Assembly (NCBI RefSeq): GCF_018860505.1
Contig: NZ_JAHKPU010000034.1
Span: 1-64,000 of the forward strand
Direction of reading: 5' to 3'
DNA length: 64,000 bases
Origin: Pacificibacter marinus
GTDB lineage: Bacteria > Pseudomonadota > Alphaproteobacteria > Rhodobacterales > Rhodobacteraceae
Shown here: positions 4,508 to 31,702 of the stretch, in pieces
Position numbering within the stretch: the stretch's first letter is position 1
Layout: each line of letters opens with the position of its first letter
Position numbers and translations under genes: made by a program
The notes under the pieces: generated by a model
The model's input: the letters and a program-made list of their open reading frames with translations, nothing else
Databases searched by the model: none
What the model was told of the DNA's origin: nothing

Positions 4508-5641
4508 TTACTTGTCGCCTTGCCCCAAAAGAGGGGCCGAACGGTCCTCTGATTTGGGGCTACGCGAAAATTTAATTGGCGTGCCAAGCCCTGAAATCCC
4601 GTCTGCCTCGACCTGAAGACCGCGCGCGATAGCTTGCGGGTCGGCCAAGGCTTCGGACACGCGGTTGATCGGCCCAGCGGGCACTTTGGCCTGTTCTAAA
4701 GCGTCAATCAAATCGCTGCGTGTCCGCGTCAATGTTTTCGCGGTGATCACATCCGTCAGCTCAGTTCGGTTCGCCACGCGGTCTGCATTGGTCGCGAACT
4801 TAGGCGAGACAGCCATATCGTTCAGCCCAAGCACATCGCAAAATGACGCGAATTGGCGATCATTGCCGCAGGTCACGATCAGATGGCCATCGCTGGCGGG
4901 AAACACCTGATAGGGCGCAATATTCGGATGAGCGTTGCCAAGGCGTTTTGGCTCGACCCCGCCGATCAAAAAGTTCGATGCCTGATTGGCCAGAACGGAA
5001 ATGCCTGTGTCAAACAACGACAGGTCAACATGCTGTCCTTTGCCTGACCGCTCCCGTTCTGCCAATGCGGCCTGCACACCGATCACACCGTAAAGACCGG
5101 TAAAAATATCGATCCATGCGACACCAACCTTTTGCGGGTCACCATCAGGTTCCCCCGTCAAATCCATGATGCCCGACATACCCTGGATCAAGAAATCATA
5201 ACCGGGCTGCAAAGCACGCGGCCCCGTTTGGCCAAATCCCGTGATAGACGCATAGACCAGACGCGGATTGAGCGCGGACATGCTGGCATAATCAAGTCCA
5301 TATTTATCAAGCCCGCCGACTTTGAAATTCTCAATCAGCACATCTGCCTCTGCTATCAAGGCTTTTAGGTTTTCCAGATCGCCAGCATTTTGAAAATCGC
5401 AAATGACCGATGCCTTGCCGCGATTTGCGCATTGAAAATAGGCCGACACCCGTTCTGTGCCACCATCCGCGCGCGCCCGTTCAATGAACGGAGGCCCCCA
5501 TTGACGGGTATCATCACCGCTTGGGCTTTCGATTTTTATAACCTCAGCCCCCAGATCGGCCAAGGTTTGACCGATCCAAGGGCCCGCCAAAATGCGAGCC
5601 AATTCAACGACCTTAAGGCCTTTTAAAGGTGTCTCATCCAA
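4508..5641 (-). CDS. family III CoA-transferase (CaiB/BaiF), probable glutarate or dicarboxylate CoA-transferase
   Basis: 377 residues, normal for the family. The N-terminal Rossmann-like part ([31 protein letters not shown]) and the catalytic aspartate region ([11 protein letters not shown], Asp178) are intact. Family III enzymes move CoA between carboxylates through an aspartyl-CoA thioester. The gene overlaps glutaryl-CoA dehydrogenase by 8 bp, and in many proteobacteria such a pair converts glutarate to glutaryl-CoA (as the human SUGCT protein does). Glutarate, or a related dicarboxylate made in this operon, is therefore the most likely acceptor. It is the last gene of the operon. Confidence 0.85.
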
Positions 5642-6845
5642 AGGCTTGCAACCCCGTTTGTGCGCGTCCCAAGATCAGCGCATGAACGTCATGTGTCCCC
5701 TCGTAGGTGTTCACAGTTTCAAGATTTTGCGCGTGACGGATCACGTGGTATTCGGCCTGAATGCCGTTGCCGCCGTGCATATCACGCGCCAAGCGCGCAA
5801 TGTCTAAGGACTTGCCACAGTTGTTACGCTTGATCATCGAAATCATTTCAGGGGCAAATTTGCCCTCGTCCATCAAACGCCCCACGCGCAGGCTGGCTTG
5901 CAAACCCAGCGCAATTTCGGTTTGCATATCGGCCAGTTTTTTCTGGAACAACTGTGTGGCGGCCAGCGGGCGACCAAACTGAATGCGATCCATGCCGTAT
6001 TGATGCGAGCGGAACCAGCAATCCTCAGCAGCGCCCAAAACGCCCCAGCTGATGCCATAACGTGCGCGGTTCAAACAGCCAAATGGCCCGCTCATGCCTT
6101 CAACATTGGGCAAGATTGCGTCTTCAGACACCTCGACATCCTGCATCACGATTTCGCCTGTGATAGATGTGCGCAGGCTCAACTTGCCTTCGATTTTCGG
6201 CGCGCTCAAACCCGCCATGCCTTTTTCAAGAACAAAGCCGCGCACTTTGCCGCCGTGCGCTTCGGATTTGGCCCAAACGACGAACACATCCGCGATGGGC
6301 GCATTGGAAATCCACGTTTTAGACCCAACCAAACGGTAACCGCCGTCGGTTTTAATCGCACGGGTGCGCATGCCACCTGGATCTGATCCTGCGTCTGGTT
6401 CGGTCAAACCGAAACAGCCGATCCATTCGCCCGCTGCAAGTTTAGGCAAGTATTTTTTCTTTTGCGCCTCAGAGCCATAGGCAAGGATCGGATACATCAC
6501 CAAAGACGATTGCACCGACATCATCGACCGGTAGCCCGAATCCACACGTTCCACTTCGCGCGCAACAAGCCCGTAAGACACATACCCAGCACCAAGCCCG
6601 CCGTATTCTTCGGGGACCGTGACGCCCAAAAGCCCCGCCTCGCCCATGCGTTGGAAAATCTCGGGATCAGTGGCCTCATTCAGATAGGCTTCTGTGACCC
6701 GTGGAGCCATTTCTTCGTCGGCAAAAGCGCGTACAGATTCACTGAACATGCGTTCATCATCGGTAAGCTGATCATCCAGCAAAAACGGGTCTTGCCAATT
6801 GAAAGAAGCACCTTTGTGCGTCGTTGTTTTCGCGATGTCATTCAT
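5634..6845 (-). CDS. gcdH: glutaryl-CoA dehydrogenase
   Basis: 403 residues. This FAD enzyme oxidises and decarboxylates glutaryl-CoA to crotonyl-CoA. Family-specific residues are present: Arg106 in [13 protein letters not shown], which contacts the glutaryl carboxylate, and the catalytic base Glu382 in [15 protein letters not shown]. The [15 protein letters not shown]/substrate loop is intact. Position near the operon end, followed by a CoA-transferase, fits a route that funnels into crotonyl-CoA. The hydratase/dehydrogenase (7918-9999) and thiolase (9996-11195) of the same operon can then take it to acetyl-CoA. Confidence 0.93.
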
Positions 6846-6895: not shown

Positions 6896-7921
6896 TTACA
6901 GCTTTGTCTCAACAATATTCCATGCAGTTTCTGCCCGCAGACGCGCCAGATGCCCAAGCTTAAGCGCCTTTTCAGAGGCCGCGTTTCCGTCCAACCCGCG
7001 CTTATACACACCTTGGATGATGGCAGCGCTGCGAAACAGTGAAAAGACCACGAAAAACAGGTGGTTGGTCACAGGTGCGCGTCCCGCATATTCGCAGTAA
7101 CGATCCAAGAATTCCTGTTCCGTCGGAATGCCAAGTGCCGCGTGATCCAAGCCTTTCAGGCGTCCTGTTGGCAAAACATCAGCGTGGTACAACGCACAGA
7201 CATAGCCCAGATCCGCCAGCGGGTGACCCAAGGTGCACAGTTCCCAATCGAGCAAGGCTAAAATCTTAGGATCCTCTTCGCCCGCAATCACATTGCCCGG
7301 ACGAAAATCACCATGAACAAGCGCCGCTTCGCCGTCTTCAACAACGTTTTCAGGCAACCATGCCATTAGATTGTCCATCGCCGAAATCGTTTCGGTTTCT
7401 GTGGCCTTGTACTGCTTGGTCCAGCGCGAAATTTGACGTGTCAGAAATCCTTCTGGGCGACCGAAATCAGATAGGCCAACAGCGTTCACATCCACCGCAT
7501 GAAGCGCTGCCAGTGAGCGGATAAAATCATCATAGAACACACAGCGCTGATCTGGCGTCATCCCTGGCAAAGACGGGTCTTGGTAAATCGGACCTTTGAC
7601 CATATCCATCACATAAAACTCTGTGCCGATTACATCGCGGTCCATGCACAACGCCAACATTTTCGGCACAGGCACAGGTGTATCGGCCAGCGCCGCCATC
7701 ACGCGATGTTCGCGATCAACGGCATGGGCAGAGGGCAACAAAGTCCCTGCAGGTTTCTTGCGCAAAACATAGTCTTTGCCCCCTGCGGTAATTTGATAGG
7801 TCGGGTTGCTTTGCCCCGCGGTGAATTGGTTTAGAACCATATCCCCCGAAAACCCTTCAACGTTTTCAGTCAAGTAGCGATGCAACGCCTGTGTGTCGAA
7901 ATCTGTTTGCGGCGAACTCAT
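6896..7921 (-). CDS. ACAD10/11-type acyl-CoA-associated kinase (APH fold, LvaA-like)
   Basis: 341 residues with an aminoglycoside-phosphotransferase fold. Visible motifs: FTAGQSNPTYQI (nucleotide loop), VLRKKPAG (ATP lysines), the catalytic loop HGDFRPGN (His203, Asp205, Asn210) and the metal-binding DWELCTLGHPLADLGY (Asp225). This subfamily equals the kinase half of human ACAD10/ACAD11 and LvaA of the Pseudomonas levulinate pathway, which phosphorylate the 4-hydroxyl of 4-hydroxyacyl-CoAs. It overlaps the hydratase/dehydrogenase gene by 4 bp. Together with the atypical dehydrogenase at 15124 it suggests that a hydroxyacyl-CoA is phosphorylated and rearranged here. No LvaB-like small partner was seen. 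Confidence 0.85.
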   Translation of the reverse strand: MSSPQTDFDTQALHRYLTENVEGFSGDMVLNQFTAGQSNPTYQITAGGKDYVLRKKPAGTLLPSAHAVDREHRVMAALADTPVPVPKMLALCMDRDVIGTEFYVMDMVKGPIYQDPSLPGMTPDQRCVFYDDFIRSLAALHAVDVNAVGLSDFGRPEGFLTRQISRWTKQYKATETETISAMDNLMAWLPENVVEDGEAALVHGDFRPGNVIAGEEDPKILALLDWELCTLGHPLADLGYVCALYHADVLPTGRLKGLDHAALGIPTEQEFLDRYCEYAGRAPVTNHLFFVVFSLFRSAAIIQGVYKRGLDGNAASEKALKLGHLARLRAETAWNIVETKL

Positions 7922-9999
7922 GGCTCTGCCCTTTCTACGTTAAGGTCTGCAAATGTGCGGCCTGTGGCGACCATGTCGCGCAAAAGCTCAGGCACGCGCC
8001 AAAAATACGGATCTTGGAGGGCATAGGCTTCGATACGATCAATCAGCGCCTGCGCACCGATCTGATCAGCTAAATGCATCGGACCACCTTTGTGACGCGG
8101 GAAACCATAGCCAAACAATTGCACCGCATCGATATCAACAGGGCGCAGCGCGACCCCCTCTTGGACCACACCAGTGGCTTCCATGATCATCGCTGTAAGA
8201 CAACGGTCAACGATGTCTTGATGGCTAAACTCTTGCTGCGTAAGCCCAAGCGCTTTGCGCTCAGCATGCATGATGTCTACTGCGCCAGCATTCGTCCCCG
8301 TCTTTTTGGTGCCATCGTAAACATAATAGCCCAGCTCGGTTTTGCGTCCGAACCAACCTTGATCCACGATCCGGTCCGCAATCGGCGAATAGCGTTCCTC
8401 GGGCGGGCGCGTTGCCGCCTTGCGGTCGCGTGTGGCCTTGGCCACATCCAACCCAGCCAAGTCGCCAACAGCAAACGGCCCCATGGCAAAACCAAAGCCT
8501 TCAAGGGCTTGATCCACAGCGGCAAAATCAGCTCCATCCAGCACCAGATATTCGCAAGCCTTACGATAAGTGGTCAAAATACGGTTGCCGATGAACCCGT
8601 CGCAAACCTCAGCGCGCACAGGTACTTTGCGGATCATCCGCGCCACATCAAACACCGTTGCGGTCACTTCAGGCGCGGTTTTTGCCCCCACCACGACCTC
8701 AAGCAAACGCATGATATGTGCGGGTGAAAAGAAATGCAGCCCGATGACATCTTGCGGACGCTTGGTGGCCTCAGCGATTTCATTCACGTCCAAATAGGAT
8801 GTGTTGGTCGCCAAAATACAGCCCCGTTTGCACACCGCATCAAGTTTGGCAAAAATGCCGGTCTTGGTCGCCATGTCTTCAAAAATTGCCTCGATCACCA
8901 GATCAACGTCAGACAGCGCCGTAATATCAGTCACGCAAGACAATGCACTCACGGCAGCGGCATGACTGTCAACCGTCAGCTTGCCACGTTTGAGCGCCCC
9001 AGACAGGTTGGCCTCAATCGCCTTTTGCGCCCGTGCTGCTGCCTCATCTTGGGTCTCGATCAACGTCACAGGACGCCCAGCTATCAAAATAGCCGTGGCA
9101 ATGCCGACGCCCATGGTGCCGCCGCCGACAACACCGACTGTCTCAACAGTCCGTGTCTGCGTCCCGCGTTCTGGGATTTTGGTCGTTGCACGTTCAGCAA
9201 AAAACGCATGGACCAATCCAGCACGCTCTTCGCCTTGCATCAATTCCATGAACAAAGCGCGTTCGCGTTTCAACCCTTGCTCGATGGGCAAGGTCGCGGC
9301 TTCAATCGCATCAATCGCACGTTGGGGCGCGATCAATCCCTTGGCATATTTAATCCGTGCCGCAGCAAGTGCGGCGTCATCTGCCGCGACCATCAAATCA
9401 TCGGTGGGCTGTGCGGTAAGTGTCCCAGCAAGAACATCACGCGCCGCGCGCAGACCTGCGTCGCGAGCATCGCCGTCCTCAAGTCGGGTTATTATACCCA
9501 GTTCCAAAGCCTCGCTATCCGCCACATGACGGCCTTTGCAGATGATATCTGTCGCGGGCGCAATTCCAGTCAAACGTGTCAGACGCTGCGTGCCACCAGC
9601 ACCTGGCAACAGGCCAAGCGTCACTTCGGGCAGGCCCACTTTGACGCCTTTGATCCCCACCCGCAGATGGGTCGCAAGCGCCAGTTCCAGCGCGCCACCA
9701 AAGGCCACCCCATGCAGCACAGACACAACAGGTTTCGCGCTGTCATTGAGCGCCTTCAACAGATCCGGCAGGGTCGGCGTTTCGGCTGCGCGCGCGAAAT
9801 CTTTGATATCCGCGCCAGCCGAAAACAATCGGCCCTCGCCGTACAGCACAATCGCGCGCACTGAAGTGTCAGCAACAAGTTCAGCCAGCGCGTCAAACAC
9901 AGCAGACCGCAAAGCCACGCCGAGCGCGTTCACCGGTGGTTTTGTCAGGCAAATCAATCCGATATCGCCGTCTCGTTCTACGCGTACGATGTCACTCAT
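7918..9999 (-). CDS. bifunctional enoyl-CoA hydratase / 3-hydroxyacyl-CoA dehydrogenase
   Basis: 693 residues, similar to FadJ/FadB-type and peroxisomal multifunctional enzymes. The N-terminal crotonase domain has the oxyanion segment FSAGADIKDF and both catalytic glutamates (Glu105 in GGALELALA, Glu125 in LPEVTLGLLPGAGG). A Rossmann NAD domain starts near 286 (VGVVGGGTMGVGIA), and the dehydrogenase dyad His422/Glu434 is seen in HFFSPAHIMRLLEVV. It should hydrate enoyl-CoA and oxidise the 3-hydroxy product for the thiolase encoded just upstream, whose gene it overlaps by 4 bp. Confidence 0.92.
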   Translation of the reverse strand: MSDIVRVERDGDIGLICLTKPPVNALGVALRSAVFDALAELVADTSVRAIVLYGEGRLFSAGADIKDFARAAETPTLPDLLKALNDSAKPVVSVLHGVAFGGALELALATHLRVGIKGVKVGLPEVTLGLLPGAGGTQRLTRLTGIAPATDIICKGRHVADSEALELGIITRLEDGDARDAGLRAARDVLAGTLTAQPTDDLMVAADDAALAAARIKYAKGLIAPQRAIDAIEAATLPIEQGLKRERALFMELMQGEERAGLVHAFFAERATTKIPERGTQTRTVETVGVVGGGTMGVGIATAILIAGRPVTLIETQDEAAARAQKAIEANLSGALKRGKLTVDSHAAAVSALSCVTDITALSDVDLVIEAIFEDMATKTGIFAKLDAVCKRGCILATNTSYLDVNEIAEATKRPQDVIGLHFFSPAHIMRLLEVVVGAKTAPEVTATVFDVARMIRKVPVRAEVCDGFIGNRILTTYRKACEYLVLDGADFAAVDQALEGFGFAMGPFAVGDLAGLDVAKATRDRKAATRPPEERYSPIADRIVDQGWFGRKTELGYYVYDGTKKTGTNAGAVDIMHAERKALGLTQQEFSHQDIVDRCLTAMIMEATGVVQEGVALRPVDIDAVQLFGYGFPRHKGGPMHLADQIGAQALIDRIEAYALQDPYFWRVPELLRDMVATGRTFADLNVERAEP

Positions 10000-11195
10000 T
10001 GGTCAACTCCGTCCATCCGTTCAATAATCATCGCGATCCCTTGACCAAACCCGATACACATGGACAAACAAGCATAACGCCCTTGCGTTCTTTCCAACTG
10101 GCGTAGTCCTGTCAGGATCAATCTCGCCCCCGAAGCGCCCAGCGGATGACCAATCGCGATGGCCCCGCCATTGGGATTTATCCGGCTGTCGTCATCCGCC
10201 AAACCAAGCGCAGCGTTGCAGGCCAACACCTGCGAGGCGAAGGCCTCGTTCACTTCGATCACGTCCATATCTGCCAGTGTCAGCCCCGCACGCGTCAAAG
10301 CTTTGGGGATGGCAAAAGCTGGCCCGATGCCCATCACGCGGGGGGCAACGCCCGACACAGCGCCCGCCAAAATGCGGGCACGAGGCACGCCAAACCCACG
10401 CGAGCCAATGACCAGAGCAGCAGCCCCGTCATTGATGCCCGACGCATTAGCAGCCGTCACAACCCCGCCATCAAACAGACTGCGCATACTGGAAAGTTTT
10501 TCTAAATTCCCACCGGGCCGTGGGTGTTCATCAACCTCAACCGTGGTCACGCTGCGCTTGGGGCCTTTGACCTCAATTGGCGTGATTTCATCTTTGAAAA
10601 ACCCGTCAACACGCGCCGCTTCATATTTGGCTTGGCTCGCCAAGGCGAAGGCGTCACAAGCCGCACGGCTGATGTCGAAATCAACGGCCAGATTGTCTGC
10701 CGTTTGTGGCATCGTGTCAGTGCCAAAGGCGGCACCAAAGGTCGCATTCGGGAAAGGTTTGCCAGCTGTGGCGTCATGAACCTCCACCTGTCGCGCCCAA
10801 GCAGTGCCAGATTTTGACATCACCAATGGCGCACGTGTCATACTTTCAACACCACCTGCGACAAACAAAGCACCATCGCCAACAGTGACAGCACGCGCCG
10901 CGTCGAGCGCCGCAGACAGGCTTGATCCGCACAAGCGATTGACCGTTTGCCCGCCAACGGTGTCAGGCAGCCCCGCCAACAGCGCCGAGAACCGCGCCAT
11001 GTTGCGGCTGTCTTCGCCAGATTGGCTGACATTGCCTAAAATCACATCTTCGAATTGATCCATCGGAAAGTTCCCTCGCGCCAGCAAGGCCCGAATGACT
11101 TCCGCCATCAAATCGTCAGGGCGAATCCCCGCCAAGGCACCGCCGTGACGCCCAAAGGGACTGCGCAGCCCGTCGTAAATATATGCATCAAGCAT
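9996..11195 (-). CDS. acetyl-CoA C-acyltransferase (thiolase)
   Basis: 399 residues. All thiolase catalytic residues are visible: nucleophile Cys89 (NRLCGSSLSA), NEAFA motif, His350 (AIGHPLGASGAR) and Cys380 (CIGFGQG). It cleaves 3-oxoacyl-CoA to acetyl-CoA and a shortened acyl-CoA. The start YIYDGLRSPFGRHGGAL resembles beta-ketoadipyl-CoA thiolases (PcaF/PaaJ), so a dicarboxylic 3-oxoacyl-CoA is possible, but the chain specificity cannot be read from sequence alone. Confidence 0.92.
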   Translation of the reverse strand: MLDAYIYDGLRSPFGRHGGALAGIRPDDLMAEVIRALLARGNFPMDQFEDVILGNVSQSGEDSRNMARFSALLAGLPDTVGGQTVNRLCGSSLSAALDAARAVTVGDGALFVAGGVESMTRAPLVMSKSGTAWARQVEVHDATAGKPFPNATFGAAFGTDTMPQTADNLAVDFDISRAACDAFALASQAKYEAARVDGFFKDEITPIEVKGPKRSVTTVEVDEHPRPGGNLEKLSSMRSLFDGGVVTAANASGINDGAAALVIGSRGFGVPRARILAGAVSGVAPRVMGIGPAFAIPKALTRAGLTLADMDVIEVNEAFASQVLACNAALGLADDDSRINPNGGAIAIGHPLGASGARLILTGLRQLERTQGRYACLSMCIGFGQGIAMIIERMDGVDQ

Positions 11196-11207
11196 GCTGT
11201 AAGTCCT

Positions 11208-12668
11208 TTATGGCGCTGAGAATTTTCCAGCGGCCTGCATATTTGCGATGGAGGGCATAGATTTGATCTCAAGAAACTCTTCCAGTCCGATGAGGCCACC
11301 TTCGCGGCCATTTCCAGACCGTTTGTAACCCCCAAGCGGTGCGCCAAAACTGGTGCCCTGCCCGTTGATCCCGATATTGCCAGCGCGAATTTGCGCGGCA
11401 ACACGCGCCGCACGGCTGGCGCTGCCGGTTTGGATATAGGCGGCAAGGCCATAGTCGGTGTCATTGGCAATCGTGATGGCCTCTTCTTCCGTGTCGAACG
11501 GAATAATGCACAGCACAGGCCCGAAAACCTCTTCACGCGCGATGGTCATATCGTTGCTGACATCTGCGAAAACAGTTGGACGCGCGAAATAGCCCGTATC
11601 GAAACCATCAGGGCGACCAAGCCCCCCAGCCACCAAACGTGCGCCATCATCGATGCCCACTTGAATGAGCGACTGTACCCGTTCGAATTGTGCTTTGTTG
11701 GCAAGCGGACCGATATGTGAACCCTCTTTGGCAGGATCATCAATCGGCTGTGCGCTGGCTTGTTTGGCCACCATGTCTACCACTTGATCATAAATGCTGC
11801 GTTCAACCAACATCCGTGTCGGCGCGTTACAGCCCTGACCCGTGTTCATAAAACACCGCGTGGTGGACGCGGACACACAGGTCTGTAAATCTGCATCAGC
11901 AAACACGATGTTCGGGGATTTTCCACCCAGTTCAAGCGTCACACGTTTGATCGTCTCGGCAGCATCACGGGTCACCATAGCACCAGCGCGGGTTGAACCG
12001 GTAAAAGACAACATCGCAATGTCTGGATGGCACGACATGGCCGAGCCAACAGTCGGACCATCACCAAAGACTAGGTTGAAAACGCCAGCCGGAAAGCCTG
12101 CCTCATGCATGAAGTCCGCAAACAAAGCCGCCGATATTGGCGTCAATTCGGACGGTTTCAATACACAAGTCGACCCCGCTGCAAGCGCAGGCAGAACCTT
12201 GGGCACAATCTGAAAGATCGGCCAGTTCCAAGGCGTGATCAGACCACAAACACCAATCGGCTCTTTGTGCATGATGTCGCCGTTGGACAGGGTTTCAGTG
12301 CTTTCAAGCTCTTCCAAAGCTGCGATGAATTGATCGACATGACGGGATGCGCTGCCTGCTTGGGCATTGCGCGACAAGGTGATCGGCGCCCCCATTTCGG
12401 ACGAAATGGCCTGTGCCATTTCCTCGTTTCGATCAATCATCACCTTTTGCAAGGCACGAAACAACGCGATGCGCTCGGCTTTGGTGGTCTTTGAATACGT
12501 CTCAAAAGCCTTAGACGCTGCCGCAACGGCATCATCCACATCAGCCGCAGAGCCCAAAGTCACTGTGCCGATCTGTGCCTCGGTCGCAGGGTTAATGATG
12601 GGAAAATCGCGCCCATCAGACGAGGAAACCCAAGCGCCGTTGATGTATTGTTTATCTAGCGTTTTCAT
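11208..12668 (-). CDS. NAD(P)-dependent aldehyde dehydrogenase
   Basis: 486 residues from ATG 12668 (AAGGT upstream). A longer frame to 12818 exists but overlaps the preceding gene and has no ribosome site. Typical motifs: TPWNWP, the coenzyme loop FTGSTRAG, general base Glu246 in LELGGKSP and nucleophile Cys280 in NTGQGCNAPTR. The enzyme oxidises an aldehyde to a carboxylate. In this operon it would act after the GMC oxidoreductase and deliver an acid for one of the two CoA-transferases. Substrate unknown. Confidence 0.92.
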   Translation of the reverse strand: MKTLDKQYINGAWVSSSDGRDFPIINPATEAQIGTVTLGSAADVDDAVAAASKAFETYSKTTKAERIALFRALQKVMIDRNEEMAQAISSEMGAPITLSRNAQAGSASRHVDQFIAALEELESTETLSNGDIMHKEPIGVCGLITPWNWPIFQIVPKVLPALAAGSTCVLKPSELTPISAALFADFMHEAGFPAGVFNLVFGDGPTVGSAMSCHPDIAMLSFTGSTRAGAMVTRDAAETIKRVTLELGGKSPNIVFADADLQTCVSASTTRCFMNTGQGCNAPTRMLVERSIYDQVVDMVAKQASAQPIDDPAKEGSHIGPLANKAQFERVQSLIQVGIDDGARLVAGGLGRPDGFDTGYFARPTVFADVSNDMTIAREEVFGPVLCIIPFDTEEEAITIANDTDYGLAAYIQTGSASRAARVAAQIRAGNIGINGQGTSFGAPLGGYKRSGNGREGGLIGLEEFLEIKSMPSIANMQAAGKFSAP

Positions 12669-12678
12669 TACCTTATAC

Positions 12679-13059
12679 CTACAGCATGTCGTGCTCTTCG
12701 AGCACGTTGCGCGCGTGGCGGAAACATTCCAGACCTTGAGGCACACCACAGTAAATGCCGATGATGTGCAAAATCGCGCGGATTTCGTCTTTGGTGACGC
12801 CGTTTTTAATGGCTCCACGACAATGGATTTCCCATTCGGTCATTTTGCCAAGTGCTGCCAACATCGTCAGGTTCATCATCGAGCGGGTCTTGTGGTCGAT
12901 CGCTTCATCGCCCCAGCCAAAGCCCCAGCACCAAGCGGTCATCGCCTCTTGGAATGGCAGTGAGAAATCATCAGCAGCAGCCAGATTTTTCTCGACATAT
13001 TCTGCGCCCACAACGGCCTTACGGTTTTTCAGGCCTTCTTCAAATAGTTTTTCGTCCAT
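12679..13059 (-). CDS. carboxymuconolactone decarboxylase family protein
   Basis: 126 residues from ATG 13059, preceded by GGAGAA; an in-frame start 48 bp further upstream would run into the neighbouring gene. The all-helical CMD fold is recognised from MLAALGKMTEWEIHCRGAIKNGVTKDEI and the closing YCGVPQGLECFRHA. True 4-carboxymuconolactone decarboxylases act in protocatechuate breakdown, but most of the family have other or unknown roles, including peroxide reduction with a CxxC that is not present here. Its placement between a CoA-transferase and an aldehyde dehydrogenase suggests a decarboxylase or lactone-handling step in this pathway. Confidence 0.82.
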   Translation of the reverse strand: MDEKLFEEGLKNRKAVVGAEYVEKNLAAADDFSLPFQEAMTAWCWGFGWGDEAIDHKTRSMMNLTMLAALGKMTEWEIHCRGAIKNGVTKDEIRAILHIIGIYCGVPQGLECFRHARNVLEEHDML

Positions 13060-13072
13060 GAGTTTTCTCCAA

Positions 13073-14245
13073 TTAGGCGACAATTCCGTCTGCGATGAGA
13101 CGGTCAATTTCAGGGTCAGTATAATTCAGCTCGGTCAAAACAGCGCGGGTGTGCTGGCCGATCTCGGGGGATTGCGCCAAGACATCACCAACGGTGAATT
13201 CCGGCATTCCAGGGATATTTGGCACTGGCCAAGGATCGTCGCTGCCTGCTTGGTCCAGCCAAGAAAACACACCGATTTCTTTGGCCTGCGGGTGTTCGAC
13301 AAAATCGCGGTAAGATTGCACCACAATGTTTTGCAGGCCCACTTTGGTCAAAACCTCTGACAAAGCATCCGCGTCCCATGTCTTGGTGATCGCGCGCACA
13401 TAATCGTTGAGGTAATCGATATTTTCCAACCGTCCAGCGATGGTGTGGAATTTGGTCTCAGCCCATAAATCATCAAGCTTCAAAACATCACAGAAGGTCG
13501 CGAATTCGGGATCGCGCACGATGTTGATCTGAATGTAGCCATCTTGCGTTTGGAACGTACCAGAGGGGGCCGTCGACGCTTTGCGCGCGCCACCACGAAA
13601 ACCGGACAAAAGACGCACGGCTTGAATGGCCCCTGCCCCTTCCATCAGACTGATCTCGATCTTACGACCCTTTGCGTGGTCACGACGCGCATAAAGCGCC
13701 CCCGCCAAAGACTGGCTTGCGTACAGCCCTGTGGCCATGTCGAAATAGCTCACGGGTGTGTGGTGCGCGATGCCGTCCATGCCGGTGTTTTCATGCACGA
13801 ATCCGCTGAATGCTTGCAGCATCGGATCCATCGCAGGTTTGTCGCGCAAGGGACCAGAGTTGCCAAAACCCGAAATCGACACATAGATCAAGCTGGGGTT
13901 CATCGCTGACAGGCGCTCGTAGCCAAAGCCAAGACGTTCGGCCACACCGGGACGATACCCTTCGATAAAGACATCTGCCTCCGCGATCAATTTATCGGTG
14001 ATCGCTTTGGCATCGTCTTGTTTCAGATTCAGACTGATCGCCCGTTTGCCCATATTGGCGACGATGGAATAGGCCGTGTGATCGCCGAAAACGCCGCCGA
14101 TCAACCGCGCCCAATCGCCACCCTGAGGTTCGATTTTGATCACATCCGCACCCTGTTGAGCCATCAACATACCGCAGTATGGGCCCGCAAGACCTTGAGA
14201 CAGATCGACAACCTTTAGACCCTCATAGGGGCGCTCAAAGCTCAT
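13073..14245 (-). CDS. family III CoA-transferase (CaiB/BaiF), second copy
   Basis: 390 residues with family hallmarks: YEGLKVVDLSQGLAGPYCGMLMAQQGADVIKIE and the catalytic aspartate Asp169 in SYFDMATGLYAS. It is clearly divergent from the CoA-transferase at 4508, so the locus can activate two different acids, or an early and a late intermediate. It overlaps the upstream dehydrogenase gene by 4 bp and ends 13 bp before the CMD gene. Confidence 0.87.
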   Translation of the reverse strand: MSFERPYEGLKVVDLSQGLAGPYCGMLMAQQGADVIKIEPQGGDWARLIGGVFGDHTAYSIVANMGKRAISLNLKQDDAKAITDKLIAEADVFIEGYRPGVAERLGFGYERLSAMNPSLIYVSISGFGNSGPLRDKPAMDPMLQAFSGFVHENTGMDGIAHHTPVSYFDMATGLYASQSLAGALYARRDHAKGRKIEISLMEGAGAIQAVRLLSGFRGGARKASTAPSGTFQTQDGYIQINIVRDPEFATFCDVLKLDDLWAETKFHTIAGRLENIDYLNDYVRAITKTWDADALSEVLTKVGLQNIVVQSYRDFVEHPQAKEIGVFSWLDQAGSDDPWPVPNIPGMPEFTVGDVLAQSPEIGQHTRAVLTELNYTDPEIDRLIADGIVA

Positions 14246-15114
14246 GATTTCGCCCTTTCATCAAGGACTTGGTACACGCGGGTGAAATCAGATTTCGGTG
14301 GCAAAGTTTCCTCGACAAGGTTCCAAACCTCTGCCACGCGTTCGCCCATCAGGTTGGATGTACCTGCCTCTTTGACGAACTCGTTGTACAGGCGCACATC
14401 TTTGTTAAGCAGCTCCGCAAAGAACCCCGCATCGAATGTGCCCGGAAGCACGCGGTTGGGGAATTTGTCGGCAATCGCTGTGTTGTTACCTGTCGAGACT
14501 TTCACAACGTCGATAATGGTTTTCATTTCGACCCCATGCGATAGCCCGAACAGAACCGCCTCGGATGAAGCCGCCATGGCTGTGGCAGACAAGAAGTTGT
14601 TAAGCAATTTCACCGCCTGCCCCTGACCAGGTTCGGAACCAACGTGAAACGCATTGGCACAGAACAGATCAATGATCGGACGATGGCGTTTGAATTCGTC
14701 TTCCGAACCGGACCAAATCAGCGTGATTGCTGCCTTCAACGCGCCTTGACGACCGCCGCTGACAGGGGCGTCAACATATGTCATCCCCACAGCGTTCAAT
14801 GTCGCGGCCGCTTGTTTGGCTGCTGCCGGCCCGATTGTGGACATCTCGATCAAGACTTTGCCAGCCACATCAGGCACAGCCGCAATTTGCGCCGCAACCG
14901 CGTTGACGATTTTGCCATCTGGAAGCGACGTAAAAATCGTATCAGCGCCTTTAATCACTGCTTCAAGGCTGTCCATTTCGGTGGACCCAGCAGGGGCCAA
15001 ACCTGATACCATGTCAAAGCAGATCATAGGCGTTGGACCCTTGGCGATAAAGGCGGCCATAGGTTCGCCCATTTGGCCAAGACCGATAAAGCCGATGGTT
15101 TTTGGAGTGGTCAT
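14242..15114 (-). CDS. NAD(P)-dependent beta-hydroxyacid dehydrogenase (3-hydroxyisobutyrate dehydrogenase family)
   Basis: 290 residues. The N-terminal dinucleotide fold has GFIGLGQMGEPMA, the substrate loop reads DAPVSGGRQGA, and the catalytic lysine Lys169 sits in GQAVKLLNN. Members oxidise 3-hydroxy acids such as 3-hydroxyisobutyrate, tartronate semialdehyde (in reverse) or 4-hydroxybutyrate. Specificity is not decided by these motifs. Spacing of 9 bp after the acyl-CoA dehydrogenase gene indicates co-transcription. Confidence 0.88.
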   Translation of the reverse strand: MTTPKTIGFIGLGQMGEPMAAFIAKGPTPMICFDMVSGLAPAGSTEMDSLEAVIKGADTIFTSLPDGKIVNAVAAQIAAVPDVAGKVLIEMSTIGPAAAKQAAATLNAVGMTYVDAPVSGGRQGALKAAITLIWSGSEDEFKRHRPIIDLFCANAFHVGSEPGQGQAVKLLNNFLSATAMAASSEAVLFGLSHGVEMKTIIDVVKVSTGNNTAIADKFPNRVLPGTFDAGFFAELLNKDVRLYNEFVKEAGTSNLMGERVAEVWNLVEETLPPKSDFTRVYQVLDERAKS

Positions 15115-15123
15115 ATTATGGTC

Positions 15124-16356
15124 CTATCGGTTGAGGTATTTTTTAAGTTCCAGACGCGCGATCTGGTTGGCGTGAACTTCGTCAGGGCCATCAGCCAGAC
15201 GAATGGCACGCGCACGGGCGTAAGCGTAAGACAGACCAAAGTCGCTTGAGATACCAGCAGCGCCATGGGCTTGGATGGCCCAGTCGATCACTTGAGCCGC
15301 CATATTCGGAGCAACCACTTTGATCATACCGATTTCTTTGCGGGCTTCTTTATTGCCAACCTTGTCCATCCGATCCGCAGCATTCAGCGTCAACAAACGT
15401 GCCTGATCGATCATGATCCGCGACTGCGCGATCCAGTCACGCACAACGCCTTGATCCGACAACGGCTTGCCAAAGGGGTGGCGATCCACAACACGTTTGC
15501 ACATTTTTTCAAGCGCAACTTCCGCTTGACCGATCATCCGCATGCAGTGGTGAATGCGTCCAGGTCCAAGCCGACCTTGGGCGATTTCAAACCCACAGCC
15601 TTCGCCAAGCAACATATTGCTGGCAGGCACGCGCACGTTGTCATAAATAATTTCGCCGTGGCCGTGTGGGGCATCCGAAAACCCAAAAACAGGGATCATG
15701 CGCTTGATTGTCAAACCAGGCGTGTCACGAGGCACAAGGATCATCGATTGTTGACGGTAGGGATCAGCGCCATCAGGGTCGCTTTTACCCATAACAATGA
15801 ACAGCTTACATCGCGAGTCGCCAGACCCAGAGGTCCACCATTTACGGCCATTGATCACATATTCATCGCCATCACGGATGATCGTCAGGCTGATATTGCG
15901 TGCATCTGATGAGGCCACGTCAGGTTCGGTCATTGAGAAACATGAGCGAATCTCACCAGCCAAGAGAGGCTCCATCCATTCTTTTTTCTGCGCCTCGGTG
16001 CCGTAGCGTTCAAGCGTTTCCATATTGCCAGTATCAGGCGCGGAACAGTTGAAAATCTCAGCCGACCAAGGCGCGCGGCCCATGATTTCGCACAAAGGCG
16101 CGTATTCCAAATTGGTCAAACCACCGCCACGACGGCTTTCAGGCAAGAACAAATTCCAAAGCCCCTCAGCGCGGGCTTTTACTTTCAATTCTTCGATAAT
16201 CGGAACACCGCCCCAATTTTCCCAGTCTTCAACACTGGCGCCCATGTCTTTCAACTGTTGCTGATAGACAGGCTCGTTCGGGTAAACATGCGCGTCCATG
16301 AATGCCTCAAGACGATCACATAAATCGCGGGCTTTCGGGCTCATTTCGAAATCCAT
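15124..16356 (-). CDS. ACAD10/11-type (LvaC-like) acyl-CoA dehydrogenase family protein
   Basis: 410 residues from ATG 16356 (AGGAGA seven bases upstream), chosen over an in-frame start 18 bp upstream. The N-terminus ([29 protein letters not shown]) and C-terminus are those of the dehydrogenase half of ACAD10/ACAD11. The usual catalytic glutamate motif (YEGT in the GcdH of this operon) is replaced by ADGPDEVH, with Asp389 at the glutamate position. In the Pseudomonas levulinate pathway the homologue LvaC works on phosphorylated 4-hydroxyacyl-CoA made by the kinase. The matching kinase is encoded at 6896-7921, so a similar two-step conversion is likely. Confidence 0.86.
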
Positions 16357-16401: not shown

Positions 16402-17172
16402 TTACGGCCCGACGATTGTTGTTCCGCCGTCAGCGACGATGACTTCGCCAGTGATAAAGCGTGACCATGGCCCAGCGAGGAAAGCCGCGATGCCACCAAT
16501 GTCATCGGGCTCACCGATACGGCGCACGGGTGTGCGTTTGATGCGGTCAGCAGAGACTTCGGGGTTTTCCCAAAGCGCGCGGGCAAAATCGGTTTTCACC
16601 AATCCGGGCATGATGCAATTGACGGTGATGTTCTTGGGGCCCCATTCCACAGCCAGCGAGCGCACAACGCCCAGATCAGCCGTTTTGGAAATGCCGTAAG
16701 CGCCAAGTGTCGGTGAGCCGCGCAAGCCCCCGATGGAGGACACAACGATAAAGCTACCCCCGCCCTGTTCTGCCATCAATGGCATCGCCGCTTTGGCAAA
16801 CCACAAAAGGCTGTGCACGTTTGAGGTCATGACCTTTTCAAAGGCTGAATCTTCAAGATCCGCCAAAGGTCCGTAGACTGGATTCACAGCGGCGTTGGCC
16901 ACGAAAATATCAACGCGTCCCCATTTGTCTTTGGCCGCTTGGACCAGCGCCATGCAATCGTCTTTCTTTGAGATATTACAGGCCACAGCCAGCGCTTCAC
17001 CGCCTTTGGCTTCAACTTCGGCAACAACGACTTCGCAGGCTTCAATCTTGCGGCTGGCGATGACGACTTTTGCGCCAAGCGCGGCAAGGTGATGGACAAT
17101 CGATGTGCCGATGCCCTTAGAGCCTCCGGTCACAATCGCGACTTTTCCAGCAAGAGAATATGGCAGGGTCAT
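16402..17172 (-). CDS. short-chain dehydrogenase/reductase
   Basis: 256 residues of the classical SDR type: cofactor motif TGGSKGIG near residue 16, structural NAA region, catalytic Ser in VVSSIGG, and YGISK with the Tyr/Lys pair. It interconverts a hydroxyl and a keto group using NAD(P). It overlaps the following gene (enolase superfamily) by 4 bp. In the 4-hydroxyacid hypothesis it could form or consume the hydroxyacyl intermediate, as LvaD does; this is inference. Confidence 0.9.
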   Translation of the reverse strand: MTLPYSLAGKVAIVTGGSKGIGTSIVHHLAALGAKVVIASRKIEACEVVVAEVEAKGGEALAVACNISKKDDCMALVQAAKDKWGRVDIFVANAAVNPVYGPLADLEDSAFEKVMTSNVHSLLWFAKAAMPLMAEQGGGSFIVVSSIGGLRGSPTLGAYGISKTADLGVVRSLAVEWGPKNITVNCIMPGLVKTDFARALWENPEVSADRIKRTPVRRIGEPDDIGGIAAFLAGPWSRFITGEVIVADGGTTIVGP

Positions 17173-18383
17173 TTACGGGCTTCCTTTCGAATTTCGGCAG
17201 GCTCATCGCCCATACGCAATTGCAAACGCGCGCCGGTATAGGGGTGGGCTTCGGCGACGTCTTCGTCCAACTCGACGCCGATACCGGGGGCGTCTGGAAC
17301 GATGACATGGCCGTCTTCCCAACGGATAGGGGATTTAAGAATTTCAGCGTGGAAACCGCCCCATTGCTCGATGCCTTCCATGATCAGGAAGTTGGGCGAA
17401 CAAGCAGACACTTGGATATTGGCTGCCCCCACGATGGGACCACAGAACAAATGCGGTGCGATTTGCGCATGAAAAGCTTCGGCCATTGAGGCGATTTTCT
17501 TGGCCTCCAAAATGCCACCAACGCGGCCCAAGTTCGGCTGTAAAATCGCAGCAGCGTCTTGGCGCAAAAGCTCGGCAAATTCGTATTTCGTACACAGGCG
17601 TTCGCCGGTGGACACAGGAATCGAGGTGTTCGCCGCAACACGCGCCGTGCCGGAAATGTAATCTGGCGGCGTGGGTTCTTCGAACCAAAGCGGATCAGAT
17701 TTTTCCAACCGCTTGGCCAGACGAATGGCACCAGCAGGTGTCAATTCGCCGTGGGTGCCGATCAAAATATCGCAGCGATGCCCAACAGCTTCGCGGATGC
17801 GCGCTGTGTAATGCTCTGCAAAATCAAGCGTTTCCATCGACAACTGACGCGGATCAAAAGCCGTATAGGGCCGCGCAGGATCAAATTTAAGCGCAGTGAA
17901 ACCCTGTTCGACATATTCAAGCGCGCGCTCTGCTGCGGCATCTGCGTTGTCGTAAACCATCTGATTTGACGCCGCATCAATCGGCGCATTCAAATAGGTG
18001 TAACTGCGCAAACGATCCTGCACCTTACCACCGAGTAAGTCATAGACTGGTTTATCAAGTGCCTTACCTATGATGTCCCAAAGGGCGATTTCAATGCCGC
18101 TGAAAATGCCCATAACAGTCGGATCGGGGCGCTGAGAAAACCCAGCAGAATAGACATGACGGAAATGACGTTCGATATTGAATGGGTTGGCGCCCACGAA
18201 ATGGCGCTCGAACATATCGTCAACCATTTCGACCAAAGCTTTGGGGTGAAACGGCACGCCGTAAATTTCGCCATAGCCTTTGATGCCAGTGTCGGTTGTG
18301 ACCCGAACAAAGACCCAGTAAGGCCCGCCCCGATGGATGGACGGATTGGCGACAACAAAGGTTTTGATGTCTTTGATCTTCAT
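17169..18383 (-). CDS. mandelate racemase / muconate lactonizing enzyme (enolase superfamily) dehydratase
   Basis: 404 residues, resembling the galactonate/mannonate dehydratase branch. An N-terminal capping domain (to about 125) precedes a TIM barrel with a lysine in TALKFDPARPY, metal ligands in the segments THGELTP, WFEEPTPPDY and STGERL, and a late histidine in IAPHLFCGP. Enzymes of this branch abstract the proton next to a carboxylate and often eliminate water from polyhydroxy acids. That points to a hydroxylated acid as substrate of the operon. The 4-bp overlaps on both sides show tight coupling. Confidence 0.85.
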   Translation of the reverse strand: MKIKDIKTFVVANPSIHRGGPYWVFVRVTTDTGIKGYGEIYGVPFHPKALVEMVDDMFERHFVGANPFNIERHFRHVYSAGFSQRPDPTVMGIFSGIEIALWDIIGKALDKPVYDLLGGKVQDRLRSYTYLNAPIDAASNQMVYDNADAAAERALEYVEQGFTALKFDPARPYTAFDPRQLSMETLDFAEHYTARIREAVGHRCDILIGTHGELTPAGAIRLAKRLEKSDPLWFEEPTPPDYISGTARVAANTSIPVSTGERLCTKYEFAELLRQDAAAILQPNLGRVGGILEAKKIASMAEAFHAQIAPHLFCGPIVGAANIQVSACSPNFLIMEGIEQWGGFHAEILKSPIRWEDGHVIVPDAPGIGVELDEDVAEAHPYTGARLQLRMGDEPAEIRKEARK

Positions 18384-19987
18384 GCGATACGTTCCTTCAG
18401 AATTAAGTCCGCGGCTTTTTCACCAATCATGATGCAGCCCGCGTTGGTATTGGCCGACACGAGGGTCGGCATGATTGAAGCATCGGCAACCCGCAGCCCC
18501 GTGATGCCATTCACCCGCAAATCAGGGGCGACAACCGCGCCTGCATCCGCGCCCATGCGGCAGGTTGAACTGGGGTGGAAAATGGTTGACCCATTGGCGC
18601 GCACATAATCGAGGATCTCGGCATCGCTTTGCACGGCATCACCAGGCACAATCTCGTTGGCGATATAGTCACTAAGCGCCGGTTGCTCCGCCACGGTGCG
18701 CACCAATTTCATCCCCGCCACCATCACGTCGCGGTCTTTTGCAGCCGCTAAGTAATTGGGTTGGATCGCGGGCTTGGCACGGTGATCTGGCGACATGATC
18801 CGCACATGGCCACGGCTTTCAGGGCGCAATTGACACATGGTCACTGTGAAGCCCGAAAAGTCGTCGAGCTTACGCCCGCGTGTGGCCGAGGAAAAGCGCA
18901 TGAAATGGAACTGCACGTCTGGTGTGGCGGCGTCTTGGTTGGTTTTCGCGAACACGCCGACTTGGCCTGCGGACAAAGACAAAGGCCCACCGCGATCTTT
19001 CAACCAACGCAGCGCAGAGCGCACTTGGCCAACCATTGATCCCGCTTCGTCATTGACGGTGACAGGCTGGCTGCACAGGTATTTGCTGGAACAGGTGTAA
19101 TGGTCTTGCAGATTTTCACCCACGTCCGGCAGATCGTGCTGCACCTTGATGCCGTGCTCTTGCAACAATTCACCATTGCCGATGCCGGACAGTTGTAAAA
19201 TCTGTGGTGAATTGATTGCACCAGCAGACAAAATCACCTCGTGACGTGCCCTAAAGCTGCGAGTCACACCGTTTTGATCGACCTCGACGCCTATCACACG
19301 ACGATCCTCAATGATCAATCGACGCACAAGGCTATCAGTTTGAATATCCAAGTTTTTCCGTCCCTTGGCGGGGCGCAGATAGGCCGTCGCCGCAGAACTG
19401 CGCAAGCCCTTGTGGGTGGTAACGTGAAAGTAGCCAGCACCTTCTTGGTCGCGTCCATTATAGTCTGGATTTGCCGGAATACCTGCCTGAGTTGCAGCTT
19501 CGATATAGGCATCACACAAAGGATGCCCACTGGCACGGCTCACGCCGAGCGGGCCATCCGTGCCATGAAACCCATCATCAAGATCATCCATCGTGGCGCC
19601 TTCTGCGCGGCGGAAATAGGGCAGCACATCGTCATAGCCCCAGCCTGTACAGCCAAGCTGACGCCAGTGATCGAAATCTTGACTTTGACCGCGTGCATAG
19701 ACCAATCCGTTGATCGAACTGCACCCGCCCAGAACCTTGCCGCGATGCCAATCGAACACACGCCCATCAAGATCAGGTTGGGTTTTGTAGCCCCAGTTGA
19801 TCCGCGGATTGTACATCGATTTGTAATATCCAATCGGGATGTGAATCCACGGGTTGCTGTCTTTTGGCCCCGCCTCAAGCAGCAAGACACGGATATCCGC
19901 GCGCGCCGACAGACGGTTGGCAATCACGCATCCCGCAGAGCCTGCACCGACCACCACGTAATCATATTCTGCATCAAATTTTTGCAA
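18380..19987 (-). CDS. GMC-family FAD oxidoreductase (choline/alcohol dehydrogenase type)
   Basis: 535 residues if started at TTG 19987, which overlaps the end of the ABC ATPase gene by 14 bp and has AGGGG eight to nine bases upstream. A frame to 20119 is open but would add about 44 non-homologous residues. Motifs: FAD loop [22 protein letters not shown] signature 1 [18 protein letters not shown], and the active-site His in [14 protein letters not shown] enzymes oxidise primary alcohols or polyols. It probably starts catabolism of the imported compound, producing an aldehyde for the operon's aldehyde dehydrogenase. Confidence 0.88.
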
Positions 19988-21620
19988 GGGTATCCCCTTC
20001 GTCAAAGACTGGCATGTCCCAGTTTTGACCCGGCTGAGCTGACAAAAGCGCCTTCGTGTAATCGTGGCTAGGCGCGTTGAAAATCTGCGACACGCCGCCT
20101 CGCTCAACGACCGAACCATATTGCATCACAAGAACTTCATTACAGATTTGCGCCGCGACACGAAGGTCATGGGTGATGAAGATCACCGTCAGGCCAAGAC
20201 GATCCCTAATGTCGTTCAACAGGTGCAAAACCTCGCGTTGGATCGACACATCAAGCGCCGATACAGCTTCATCCGCGATCAAAACTTTGGGCTGAACGAC
20301 CAGCGCACGCGCGATACACAACCGTTGGCGTTGCCCACCTGAAAACTGGCTTGGGAACCGGTTCACAGAGTCATGCGGCATGCGTACAATATCGAGCAAC
20401 TTATAGACACGGTCCCAAGCTTCTTTGCGCGGGATCCCAAAGTTAATCGCTCCTTGAATCAGCTGACTGCCAATGGTGCGACGCGGGTTGAGCGAGCCGT
20501 AAGGATCCTGAAACACGATCTGGATATCTTTGCGATGGCTGCGCAATTCGGACCGCGACTTGGCAGCAAAATCGACACCAGAGATATTGATCGCGCCATT
20601 GTCAGGTTCGATCAATCGCATCAAACAGCGAACAAGCGTGGTTTTCCCTGACCCAGATTCGCCAACGATCCCAAGTGTTTCACCGCGTTTAACTTGGAAA
20701 GACACATTGTTCACCGCCGTCACAGTGCGCGCCGGTTTGAACATGCCTGTGCTGGTGGTGAAGGTTTTGTTCAAACCTTGTACATCAATCACCACAGGGT
20801 TTTCATTTGCCTCAGGCGTGGTGTCTTCGGTCATCGGACGCGGCACCGCATCGATCAACGCGCGGGTGTAGGGGTGCTGCGGATTGTTCAACACCTCTTC
20901 TGCCGTGCCTTGCTCTACGATTTCGCCGTGACGCATCACCACAACGCGATCCGCGATTTCTGCGACCACGCCAAAGTCATGGGTGATGAACATGATACCC
21001 GCGTCATGGCGTTCATTCAGCTGCTTCAACAGCACCAAAATTTGCGCCTGCGTTGTCACATCCAACGCCGTTGTCGGCTCGTCCGCGATCAACAATTTTG
21101 GGTCCAGCGCCAGCGCCATCGCAATCATGATACGTTGACGTTGCCCGCCAGACAGTTGGTGCGGAAAGGCGTCATACAAACGCTTTGGCTCTGGCAAGCG
21201 CACTTCTTCGAGCAGGCGCATGACCTCAGCACGGCGATCTGCGGCGCTGAGAGTACGGTGAATGCGGAACACTTCTTCGATCTGCGCGCCAACAGTGTAA
21301 GCAGGATTAAGGGCCGTCATCGGCTCTTGAAAAATCATCGCCATTTGGTCACCGCGCATGGCGTTGCGTTCTTTGTTGCTCAGCTTCAAAACATCACGAC
21401 CATCGAAGTCAATCGATCCGCTGGTGACTTTCAAGCCAGGCGACAACAAGCCCATCGTCGCCAAGGAGGTAATGGATTTTCCAGAGCCGGATTCCCCCAC
21501 AACGCAAAGGATTTCACGGGGGCGCACGTCAAAGGAAATGCCGGTGACCGCGTTTTTTCGGTCCAGTTTGACCGGCAGACCTACGGTGAGGTTACGAATA
21601 GAAAGGACGGGATCAGCCAT
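19974..21620 (-). CDS. peptide/opine-type ABC transporter, fused double ATPase (DppD-DppF)
   Basis: 548 residues from ATG 21620 (AGGAA upstream). Two complete ATPase domains are fused: residues ~1-255 with GESGSGKS, LSGGQRQRIMIA and LLIADEPTTALD, and ~280-530 with GESGSGKT, FSGGQRQRLCIA and VLIADEAVSALD. Classical Dpp/Opp systems have two separate ATPase genes; fused forms occur in the glutathione (GsiA) and related systems. It energises the permeases encoded just upstream. Its stop codon lies within the start region of the GMC gene, linking transport and catabolism. Confidence 0.92.
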   Translation of the reverse strand: MADPVLSIRNLTVGLPVKLDRKNAVTGISFDVRPREILCVVGESGSGKSITSLATMGLLSPGLKVTSGSIDFDGRDVLKLSNKERNAMRGDQMAMIFQEPMTALNPAYTVGAQIEEVFRIHRTLSAADRRAEVMRLLEEVRLPEPKRLYDAFPHQLSGGQRQRIMIAMALALDPKLLIADEPTTALDVTTQAQILVLLKQLNERHDAGIMFITHDFGVVAEIADRVVVMRHGEIVEQGTAEEVLNNPQHPYTRALIDAVPRPMTEDTTPEANENPVVIDVQGLNKTFTTSTGMFKPARTVTAVNNVSFQVKRGETLGIVGESGSGKTTLVRCLMRLIEPDNGAINISGVDFAAKSRSELRSHRKDIQIVFQDPYGSLNPRRTIGSQLIQGAINFGIPRKEAWDRVYKLLDIVRMPHDSVNRFPSQFSGGQRQRLCIARALVVQPKVLIADEAVSALDVSIQREVLHLLNDIRDRLGLTVIFITHDLRVAAQICNEVLVMQYGSVVERGGVSQIFNAPSHDYTKALLSAQPGQNWDMPVFDEGDTLAKI

Positions 21621-21624
21621 GTCA

Positions 21625-22518: not shown

Positions 22519-22520
22519 GA

Positions 22521-23438: not shown

Positions 23439-23480
23439 AGTATCAAGCCCGTTTTGTTTGAGAAAAGTGAGGTGACACTC

Positions 23481-30617: not shown

Positions 30618-30637
30618 GAACCTTAGGGAGGAACGTC

Positions 30638-31660: not shown

Positions 31661-31702
31661 GACATAACTGACCCAGACTTTCTGATCAGTTAAACGACGT
31701 CT

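Follow-up and report, generated by a model that had tools for sequence, protein, structure and literature searches.

We analysed a 64,000-nucleotide stretch of the Pacificibacter marinus genome (assembly GCF_018860505.1, contig NZ_JAHKPU010000034.1, positions 1 to 64,000; hereafter the window) and found an operon in which the two catalytic halves of mammalian ACAD10/ACAD11 occur as separate proteins, an APH-like kinase (6896-7921) and an ACAD11-type dehydrogenase (15124-16356). By open reading frame (ORF) calls and Pfam scans, the operon consists of 17 same-direction, tightly packed genes on the minus strand, running from 25068 down to 4508. Judged from its sequences, it probably encodes the degradation of an oxygenated acid or alcohol taken up by the cell, with an end part that would work like the levulinate (lva) or ACAD10/11 route. 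The kinase and the ACAD11-type enzyme likely convert 4-hydroxyacyl-CoA through 4-phosphoacyl-CoA to 2-enoyl-CoA, and the substrate is likely other than levulinate. A first-pass annotation of positions 6896-16356 had given correct coordinates for both ORFs, which lie on the minus strand, and had listed as their partners an SDR, a hydratase/3-hydroxyacyl-CoA dehydrogenase, a thiolase and CaiB-type (class III) CoA-transferases, all of which, the CoA-transferases as two genes, are found in the operon by Pfam. It overlooked that the operon starts further upstream, at 25068, as well as the CMD-family ORF at 12679-13059 and the true glutaryl-CoA dehydrogenase (GCDH) at 5634-6845. According to the accessible portions of PMC11342911 and PMC12440821, on which our references to these two papers rely, the two-enzyme chemistry is already known, and it is the operon context that is new; no publication on this operon surfaced in our literature search.

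The kinase is a protein of 341 amino acids with a Pfam APH match of 171.5 bits and the motifs HGDFRPGN and DWELCTLGHPLADL. Among solved structures its best two matches are 3dxp (359 bits) and ACAD11 (8v3v, 268 bits), with 40% identity to the ACAD11 kinase half, followed by 9o56, a chain named only 'Aminoglycoside phosphotransferase' (182 bits), and 9fsg, 'aminoglycoside phosphotransferase-like' (44.5 bits). Macrolide, hygromycin and capreomycin kinases reach at most 27.9 bits and the APH(3') model 34.1 bits against a cut-off of 205. In the alignment, the mouse ACAD11 residues D220, N225 and R176 correspond to D205, N210 and R162 of the window kinase; the D205 column is Asp in 92 of 93 rows, and the N210 and R162 columns are invariant (93/93). 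A tree of these 93 rows groups the window kinase with its counterpart in G243, a genome from another genus of the family (support 100/100), inside a set that holds 3dxp and ACAD11 and apart from a Bacillota/Acidobacteriota set that contains 9o56, which groups with kinases from Bacillota ACAD11-like loci. The proposal that this protein is the kinase half of ACAD10/11 standing on its own is thus confirmed by the two best structural matches and the retained catalytic Asp, Asn and CoA-contacting Arg, and the protein is closer to ACAD10/11 kinases than to antibiotic kinases.

The dehydrogenase matches 4hr3 (490 bits) and ACAD11 (8v3u, 465 bits), compared to at most 138 bits for ordinary acyl-CoA dehydrogenases (ACADs), and it is 53.3% identical to ACAD11 but only 23.8% to the operon's own GCDH. 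In the alignment, Asp395 (residue numbers count from the TTG at 16374) occupies the column of the catalytic Glu of ordinary ACADs, where GCDH has Glu; the earlier description of the motif ADGPDEVH in place of YEG was right. The phosphate-site pattern Arg...His-Cys-Met-Arg is present as R268, H276, C277, M278 and R279. In mouse ACAD11, R626, H634 and R637 matter by mutation and D753 is catalytic (PMC12440821), and these residues correspond to R268, H276, R279 and D395 of the window, identical in 142 of 142 ACAD rows, the window being counted twice. The numbering of the PDB chain that we used is that of mouse ACAD11 minus one, judged from D220 and D753. In an ACAD tree of 143 rows built with a quick method, the window protein, that of G243 and that of a Filomicrobium metagenome-assembled genome (MAG) form one clade within the ACAD11-like family (99% in the Shimodaira-Hasegawa-like approximate likelihood-ratio test, SH-aLRT), with clade-specific residues that include T159R, D233S and R286V; the ACAD11 row sits on a long branch and its place is unsure. 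The rows of both trees were gathered with the window proteins as queries and sample the two families only in part. Bit scores, residues and trees with ACAD11, 4hr3, 3dxp and 9o56 place the pair in the ACAD10/11 (LvaA/LvaC-type) family, as had been proposed, and the 4-phospho route is the best reading of the pair by family and residues.

In order to place the pair among its relatives, we compared the window with a named-genome set, the best 80 of at least 593 ACAD11-like relatives, which come from several phyla. Because the loci differ in length (3-21 kb), presence counts are lower bounds: a kinase above 100 bits was found in 49 of the 80 loci and none above 100 bits in 31, while an SDR was seen in 52, a FadB-like gene in 35, a ligase in 34, a thiolase in 16 and CaiB-type matches in three (L049, L084 and L089). 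Within the family, the kinase is found at E<=1e-70 in 229 of 394 genomes, and 11 of 29 kinase loci of about 4 kb (L159-L187, the G243 operon kinase included) hold an ACAD11-like match, which indicates that split pairs are ordinary. The split pair is therefore not a special feature, contrary to what the first-pass annotation had implied. ACAD11-like genes were found at E<=1e-150 in 16 of 295 genomes of the family sample, a threshold above the scores of several of those at the kinase loci, at E<=1e-170 in 80 of 385 genomes of the class sample, and at E<=1e-60 in 183 plasmid records, with a best identity of 68%. Other bacterial kinase and ACAD11-like pairs, with the structures 3dxp and 4hr3, differ from the window in operon content, and the window ACAD clades with those of G243 and the Filomicrobium MAG.

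Several observations weigh against the proposed 4-phospho end part and have to be set beside the evidence above. In the window 7.2 kb separate the kinase gene from the ACAD gene; of the 49 kinase-bearing loci among the best 80, 48 have the two genes closer together. Beyond G243 the placement of the window kinase is poorly supported (92/8); the Filomicrobium MAG, whose ACAD is at 78% identity the nearest outside relative of the window ACAD, does not carry the closest kinase, its own falling elsewhere in the tree. Under the numbering used, the Arg R86 of PMC12440821 does not fall on an Arg; the window kinase has an Arg beside the alpha-C Glu (DREH, R70). The pocket proline, human Pro463 (mapped to mouse 462), which has been linked to an enlarged pocket (PMC11342911), is Ala105 in the window. 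This column is Pro in only 94 of 142 ACAD rows, however, so that the proline does not define the bacterial family. Orthology of the pair to the lva genes themselves is indirect. Finally, 0 of 29 Pseudomonas loci (L188-L216, 2.8-4.2 kb) have a kinase above 60 bits within about 1.5 kb of the ACAD11-like gene, and together with the 31 kinase-free loci among the best 80 this means that a kinase route cannot be concluded from an ACAD11-like gene by itself. An SDR match above 60 bits beside the ACAD11-like gene was likewise found in 0 of these 29 loci, and among four further Pseudomonas ACAD11-like copies there was a single kinase-ACAD pair (L217), while a cluster of kinase, ACAD and SDR was found at none of them. 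As a separate observation, an ACAD11-like gene was found at E<=1e-100 in 77 of 79 Pseudomonas genomes, where the enzyme is conserved and apparently solitary.

The distance between the two genes, and trees that do not converge on one outside relative, could also mean that the kinase and the ACAD11-type enzyme each have a substrate of their own within the pathway, or that the ACAD is a conventional dehydrogenase. The two proteins have evolved at different speeds, the kinase being 72% and the ACAD 93% identical to their G243 counterparts, which would agree with such a separation. Against it, the phosphate-site residues and the catalytic Asp are all retained, both genes occur together in one operon in two genera, and mouse ACAD10/11 showed no activity with unsubstituted acyl-CoAs (PMC12440821). 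We consider this explanation very unlikely, and we return to joint action of the pair on a 4-hydroxyacyl-CoA.

The remaining genes of the operon, all on the minus strand, suggest how such a compound might be supplied. Uptake would fall to an Opp-type importer made of a periplasmic solute-binding protein of family 5 (Opp/Dpp type; 23539-25068, SBP_bac_5 257.6 bits, 78% identical to G243), an OppB-like permease (22521-23486, BPD_transp_1, 80% to G243), an OppC-like permease (21625-22524, BPD_transp_1 and OppC_N) and a fused double ABC ATPase (19974-21668, two ABC_tran domains and oligo_HPY). A GMC-type FAD oxidoreductase (18380-20119, GMC_oxred N and C domains), the true start of which is probably downstream of the ORF start at 20119, and an NAD(P) aldehyde dehydrogenase (11208-12668, starting at an internal ATG; Aldedh 526.9 bits) may, going by their gene families, oxidise a primary alcohol. 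An MR/MLE enolase-superfamily enzyme of the 4e4u type (17169-18383; MR_MLE, 533.6 bits to 4e4u, 91% to G243) and the SDR oxidoreductase (16402-17172; adh_short_C2, 91% to G243) would then probably make first a 4-oxo and then a 4-hydroxy compound, the SDR being a candidate for an LvaD-like step. The class III CoA-transferase CaiB2 (13073-14245; CoA_transf_3 309.6 bits, 78% to G243), rather than a ligase, may form 4-hydroxyacyl-CoA. The kinase would phosphorylate the 4-hydroxyl of this CoA ester, and the ACAD11-type enzyme, with Asp395 as the presumed base and Arg268, His276 and Arg279 as the presumed phosphate site, would expel the phosphate to give 2-enoyl-CoA. The FadB-like enoyl-CoA hydratase/3-hydroxyacyl-CoA dehydrogenase (7918-9999; ECH_1, 3HCDH_N and 3HCDH) could hydrate and oxidise this product, and a thiolase nearest to 3-oxoadipyl-CoA thiolases (9996-11195) could cleave the resulting 3-oxoacyl-CoA. 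The thiolase scores below the cut-offs of the PRK08131 (600.3 bits, cut-off 622) and PcaF (TIGR02430, 492.7 bits, cut-off 597) models, yet far above its scores with the remaining thiolase models, a pattern that suggests a dicarboxyl-CoA. The operon also encodes a beta-hydroxyacid dehydrogenase (HIBADH-like; 14242-15114, NAD_binding_2/NAD_binding_11; TIGR01692 165 bits, below its cut-off of 291.6) and the CMD-family, PcaC-like protein (12679-13059, 83% to G243). A divergent LysR regulator on the plus strand (25275-26213; HTH_1 and LysR_substrate, 65% identical and in the same place in G243) likely regulates the operon, given its position.

Mammalian ACAD10/ACAD11 share with the window both catalytic halves, the catalytic Asp, the HCMR motif, the upstream Arg and the kinase Asp, Asn and Arg; the window differs in having two separate proteins seven kb apart, at 53% (ACAD) and 40% (kinase) identity, and in that no HAD domain was found among the operon ORFs scanned with Pfam. 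The lva operon of Pseudomonas putida (LvaABCDEFG), as described in the accessible portions of PMC6692424, PMC11342911 and PMC12440821, likewise has a kinase, an ACAD11-type enzyme and an SDR in one operon that feeds beta-oxidation. These three genes form the lva core, and the window could also be accounted for by a plain pathway for levulinate or gamma-lactones (4-hydroxyvalerate) in which the accessory genes have been exchanged, particularly as lva clusters vary and may be without lvaB, as in the Pseudomonas citronellolis cluster in which, as far as the available text of PMC6692424 tells, no lvaB was found. However, the window has, beyond the FadB-like and aldehyde dehydrogenase genes that are also extra to lva, GMC, MR/MLE, HIBADH-like, CMD and dicarboxylate-type thiolase genes, which have no known role with levulinate and are yet kept in G243. 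Furthermore, where lva has the ligase LvaE, a sigma54-type regulator and an ActP/DUF485 transporter, the window has a LysR and an Opp-type importer, and one ligase query gave no acyl-CoA ligase match in the 64-kb window at E<=1e-5 and above 70 bits. No AMP-binding domain was found among the window ORFs scanned with Pfam either. We therefore regard a levulinate pathway as improbable; a variant for another substrate, which had been put forward tentatively in the first-pass annotation, is likely.

The same annotation had taken the absence of a visible LvaB as a distinguishing feature. Such an absence would not be special: besides the P. citronellolis cluster, Burkholderia kinase and ACAD proteins, which are the same two split proteins, could replace the ACAD10 domains in a test for which LvaB goes unmentioned in the accessible portions of PMC11342911. 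The only small gene noticed in the operon is that of the CMD family. The suggestion that CaiB-type CoA-transferases take the place of a ligase stands in part. It agrees with the single-query ligase result, and CaiB2 is the candidate activator of the route; it has an Asp in GFGNSGPLRDKPAMD, and this Asp is expected in class III CoA-transferases. The other CoA-transferase, CaiB1 (4508-5641), pairs with GCDH instead.

This pairing bears on another possible end point of the pathway. GCDH (5634-6845; 721 bits to 4w9u and 609 bits to the bacterial GCDH 3gnc) starts 50 bp behind the kinase and is the only copy at E<=1e-60 in the 3.65 Mb, 96.67% complete source genome; CaiB1 is of the succinate-glutarate type (NF052585 503 bits, cut-off 750; 488 bits to 4ed9). 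The same two enzymes occur in the congener G260 together with a divergent LysR and without the operon. A LysR of this kind (44-60% identical) adjoins four of five GCDH copies in four other genomes (L109, L111, L112 and L113, the last being that of G260, with L118 the same place), the exception being L114, a second GCDH copy in G215. In the window this LysR is missing. Among these five copies CaiB1 was found beside GCDH in G260 only and not beside the other four, and this lone case speaks against LysR-GCDH-CaiB1 as a general unit of the family. Together, GCDH and CaiB1 probably represent a glutarate unit of the host that has become linked physically to the operon. CaiB1 was rejected as the default activating enzyme of the route because G260 carries GCDH-CaiB1 without the operon.

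As a special case of the proposed pathway, the substrate might be a seven-carbon 4-hydroxydicarboxylate that is cut to glutaryl-CoA and acetyl-CoA, with GCDH finishing the breakdown. GCDH and CaiB1 follow the kinase in both operon-bearing genomes, the gap in the window is short and the accompanying LysR is missing, and the thiolase is of the 3-oxodicarboxyl type, all of which would fit. Yet with a sole GCDH in the genome and a G260 unit without the operon, the adjacency may be accidental, and the G243 unit still has a divergent LysR of its own, between the kinase and GCDH-CaiB1. We consider glutaryl-CoA as the end point unlikely.

The enzymes upstream of the pair suggest a further, also unlikely version of the proposed pathway, in which a sugar-acid-like polyhydroxylated compound is turned by the MR/MLE enzyme into a 4-oxo acid and by the SDR into a 4-hydroxy acid, which is activated by the class III CoA-transferase and then loses its hydroxyl, by way of a phospho-intermediate, through the action of the ACAD10/11-type pair. 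The Filomicrobium locus L018 (8727-10001 and 10016-12425), where the kinase of that MAG also lies, is the only one of the best 80 with an MR/MLE gene, of another subfamily and directly beside the ACAD, which fits this version. The five nearest solved structures of the MR/MLE enzyme bear family names only, and the best solved relative of the GMC protein is a chloramphenicol-inactivating oxidoreductase (413 bits). A plasmid search with the MR/MLE enzyme gave 54 records; in the three contexts read, which hold relatives at 57-58% identity, GMC adjoins in all three, an aldehyde dehydrogenase lies within two genes in two, and no kinase or ACAD11-type match is near. These contexts yield an MR/MLE-GMC module but no substrate, and an assignment of the substrate from this neighbourhood was rejected. 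A search of plasmids with the SDR at E<=1e-70 gave no match.

The CMD protein misses the cut-off of the PcaC equivalog (TIGR02425, 119.1 bits against 155.7) and forms a subgroup of its own, with relatives at 70-78% identity in nine plasmid records and the next match at about 50%. These plasmids are alphaproteobacterial, and an aldehyde dehydrogenase match lies in the same stretch in six of the nine, but the clusters are unlike one another: one has sarcosine oxidase, another Rieske, aminotransferase and aldehyde dehydrogenase genes, another stands beside phosphonate genes, and there are others. In view of these unlike clusters and the missed cut-off, we rejected a firm claim of a beta-ketoadipate-like pathway (4-carboxymuconolactone chemistry) from this gene.

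In the genome G243 the complete set of 18 genes, counting the divergent LysR, follows the order seen in the window, and an additional LysR lies between the kinase and GCDH. Protein identity between the two operons is 65-93% while fourfold sites are 53-67% different, which indicates long-standing selection to retain the operon genes. The MR/MLE enzyme, the SDR and the ACAD are the three most conserved operon proteins (91-93%), compared to 65-83% for the others, the LysR included. Recombination was rejected as the cause of this block, since fourfold sites differ by 53-56% within it and by 55-67% outside it; the block is old, and constraint fits better, with a mild difference left.

The distribution of the operon is patchy: G260, although a congener, gave no match to ACAD (E<=1e-150), CaiB2 (E<=1e-80) or the kinase (E<=1e-70). 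CaiB2 is a rarer marker than the other two, with matches at E<=1e-80 in four of 394 family genomes, of which only those of the window (100%) and G243 (78%) exceed 40% identity. In the class sample it was found at E<=1e-85 in 24 of 385 genomes, with 52% as the best other identity, and on plasmids in seven records, none above 39%. At seven of the class loci (3.3-4.2 kb) no other operon enzyme adjoins CaiB2; one ABC ATPase match was seen at one locus.

The MR/MLE, GMC, CMD and CaiB2 genes and the Opp importer make an unusual setting for the pair: a GMC gene, a CMD gene and an MR/MLE gene of the window's kind were met in none of the best 80 comparison loci. It was only in 2024-2025 that phosphorylate-and-eliminate chemistry on 4-hydroxyacyl-CoA was assigned to ACAD10/11, the substrates being 4-hydroxy fatty acids and, in bacteria, levulinate. 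The presence of the pair in one operon with an enzyme of the enolase superfamily, a CoA-transferase and a thiolase of the dicarboxyl type suggests its use on other, more oxygenated compounds. If the sugar-acid-like version were true, a highly oxygenated compound would enter beta-oxidation as a dicarboxyl-CoA and give succinyl-CoA or glutaryl-CoA plus acetyl-CoA. In addition, MR/MLE enzymes of the 4e4u type now have a pathway context for testing their function.

Beyond the divergent LysR, the window continues with a MauG-like gene (26348-27700) related to the family associated with the His-Xaa-Ser system (TIGR03981, 245 bits, cut-off 340), adjoined by an ORF of 502 amino acids (27697-29205) with no NCBIfam match at 1e-20. 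Two adjoining minus-strand ORFs of 345 and 378 amino acids (36914-39098) also gave no NCBIfam match at 1e-20. The stretch from 29184 to 36615 is ordinary, with a gene for a ROK-type regulator and others for the uptake and catabolism of xylose (xylF, permease, ATPase, xylulokinase and xylose isomerase).

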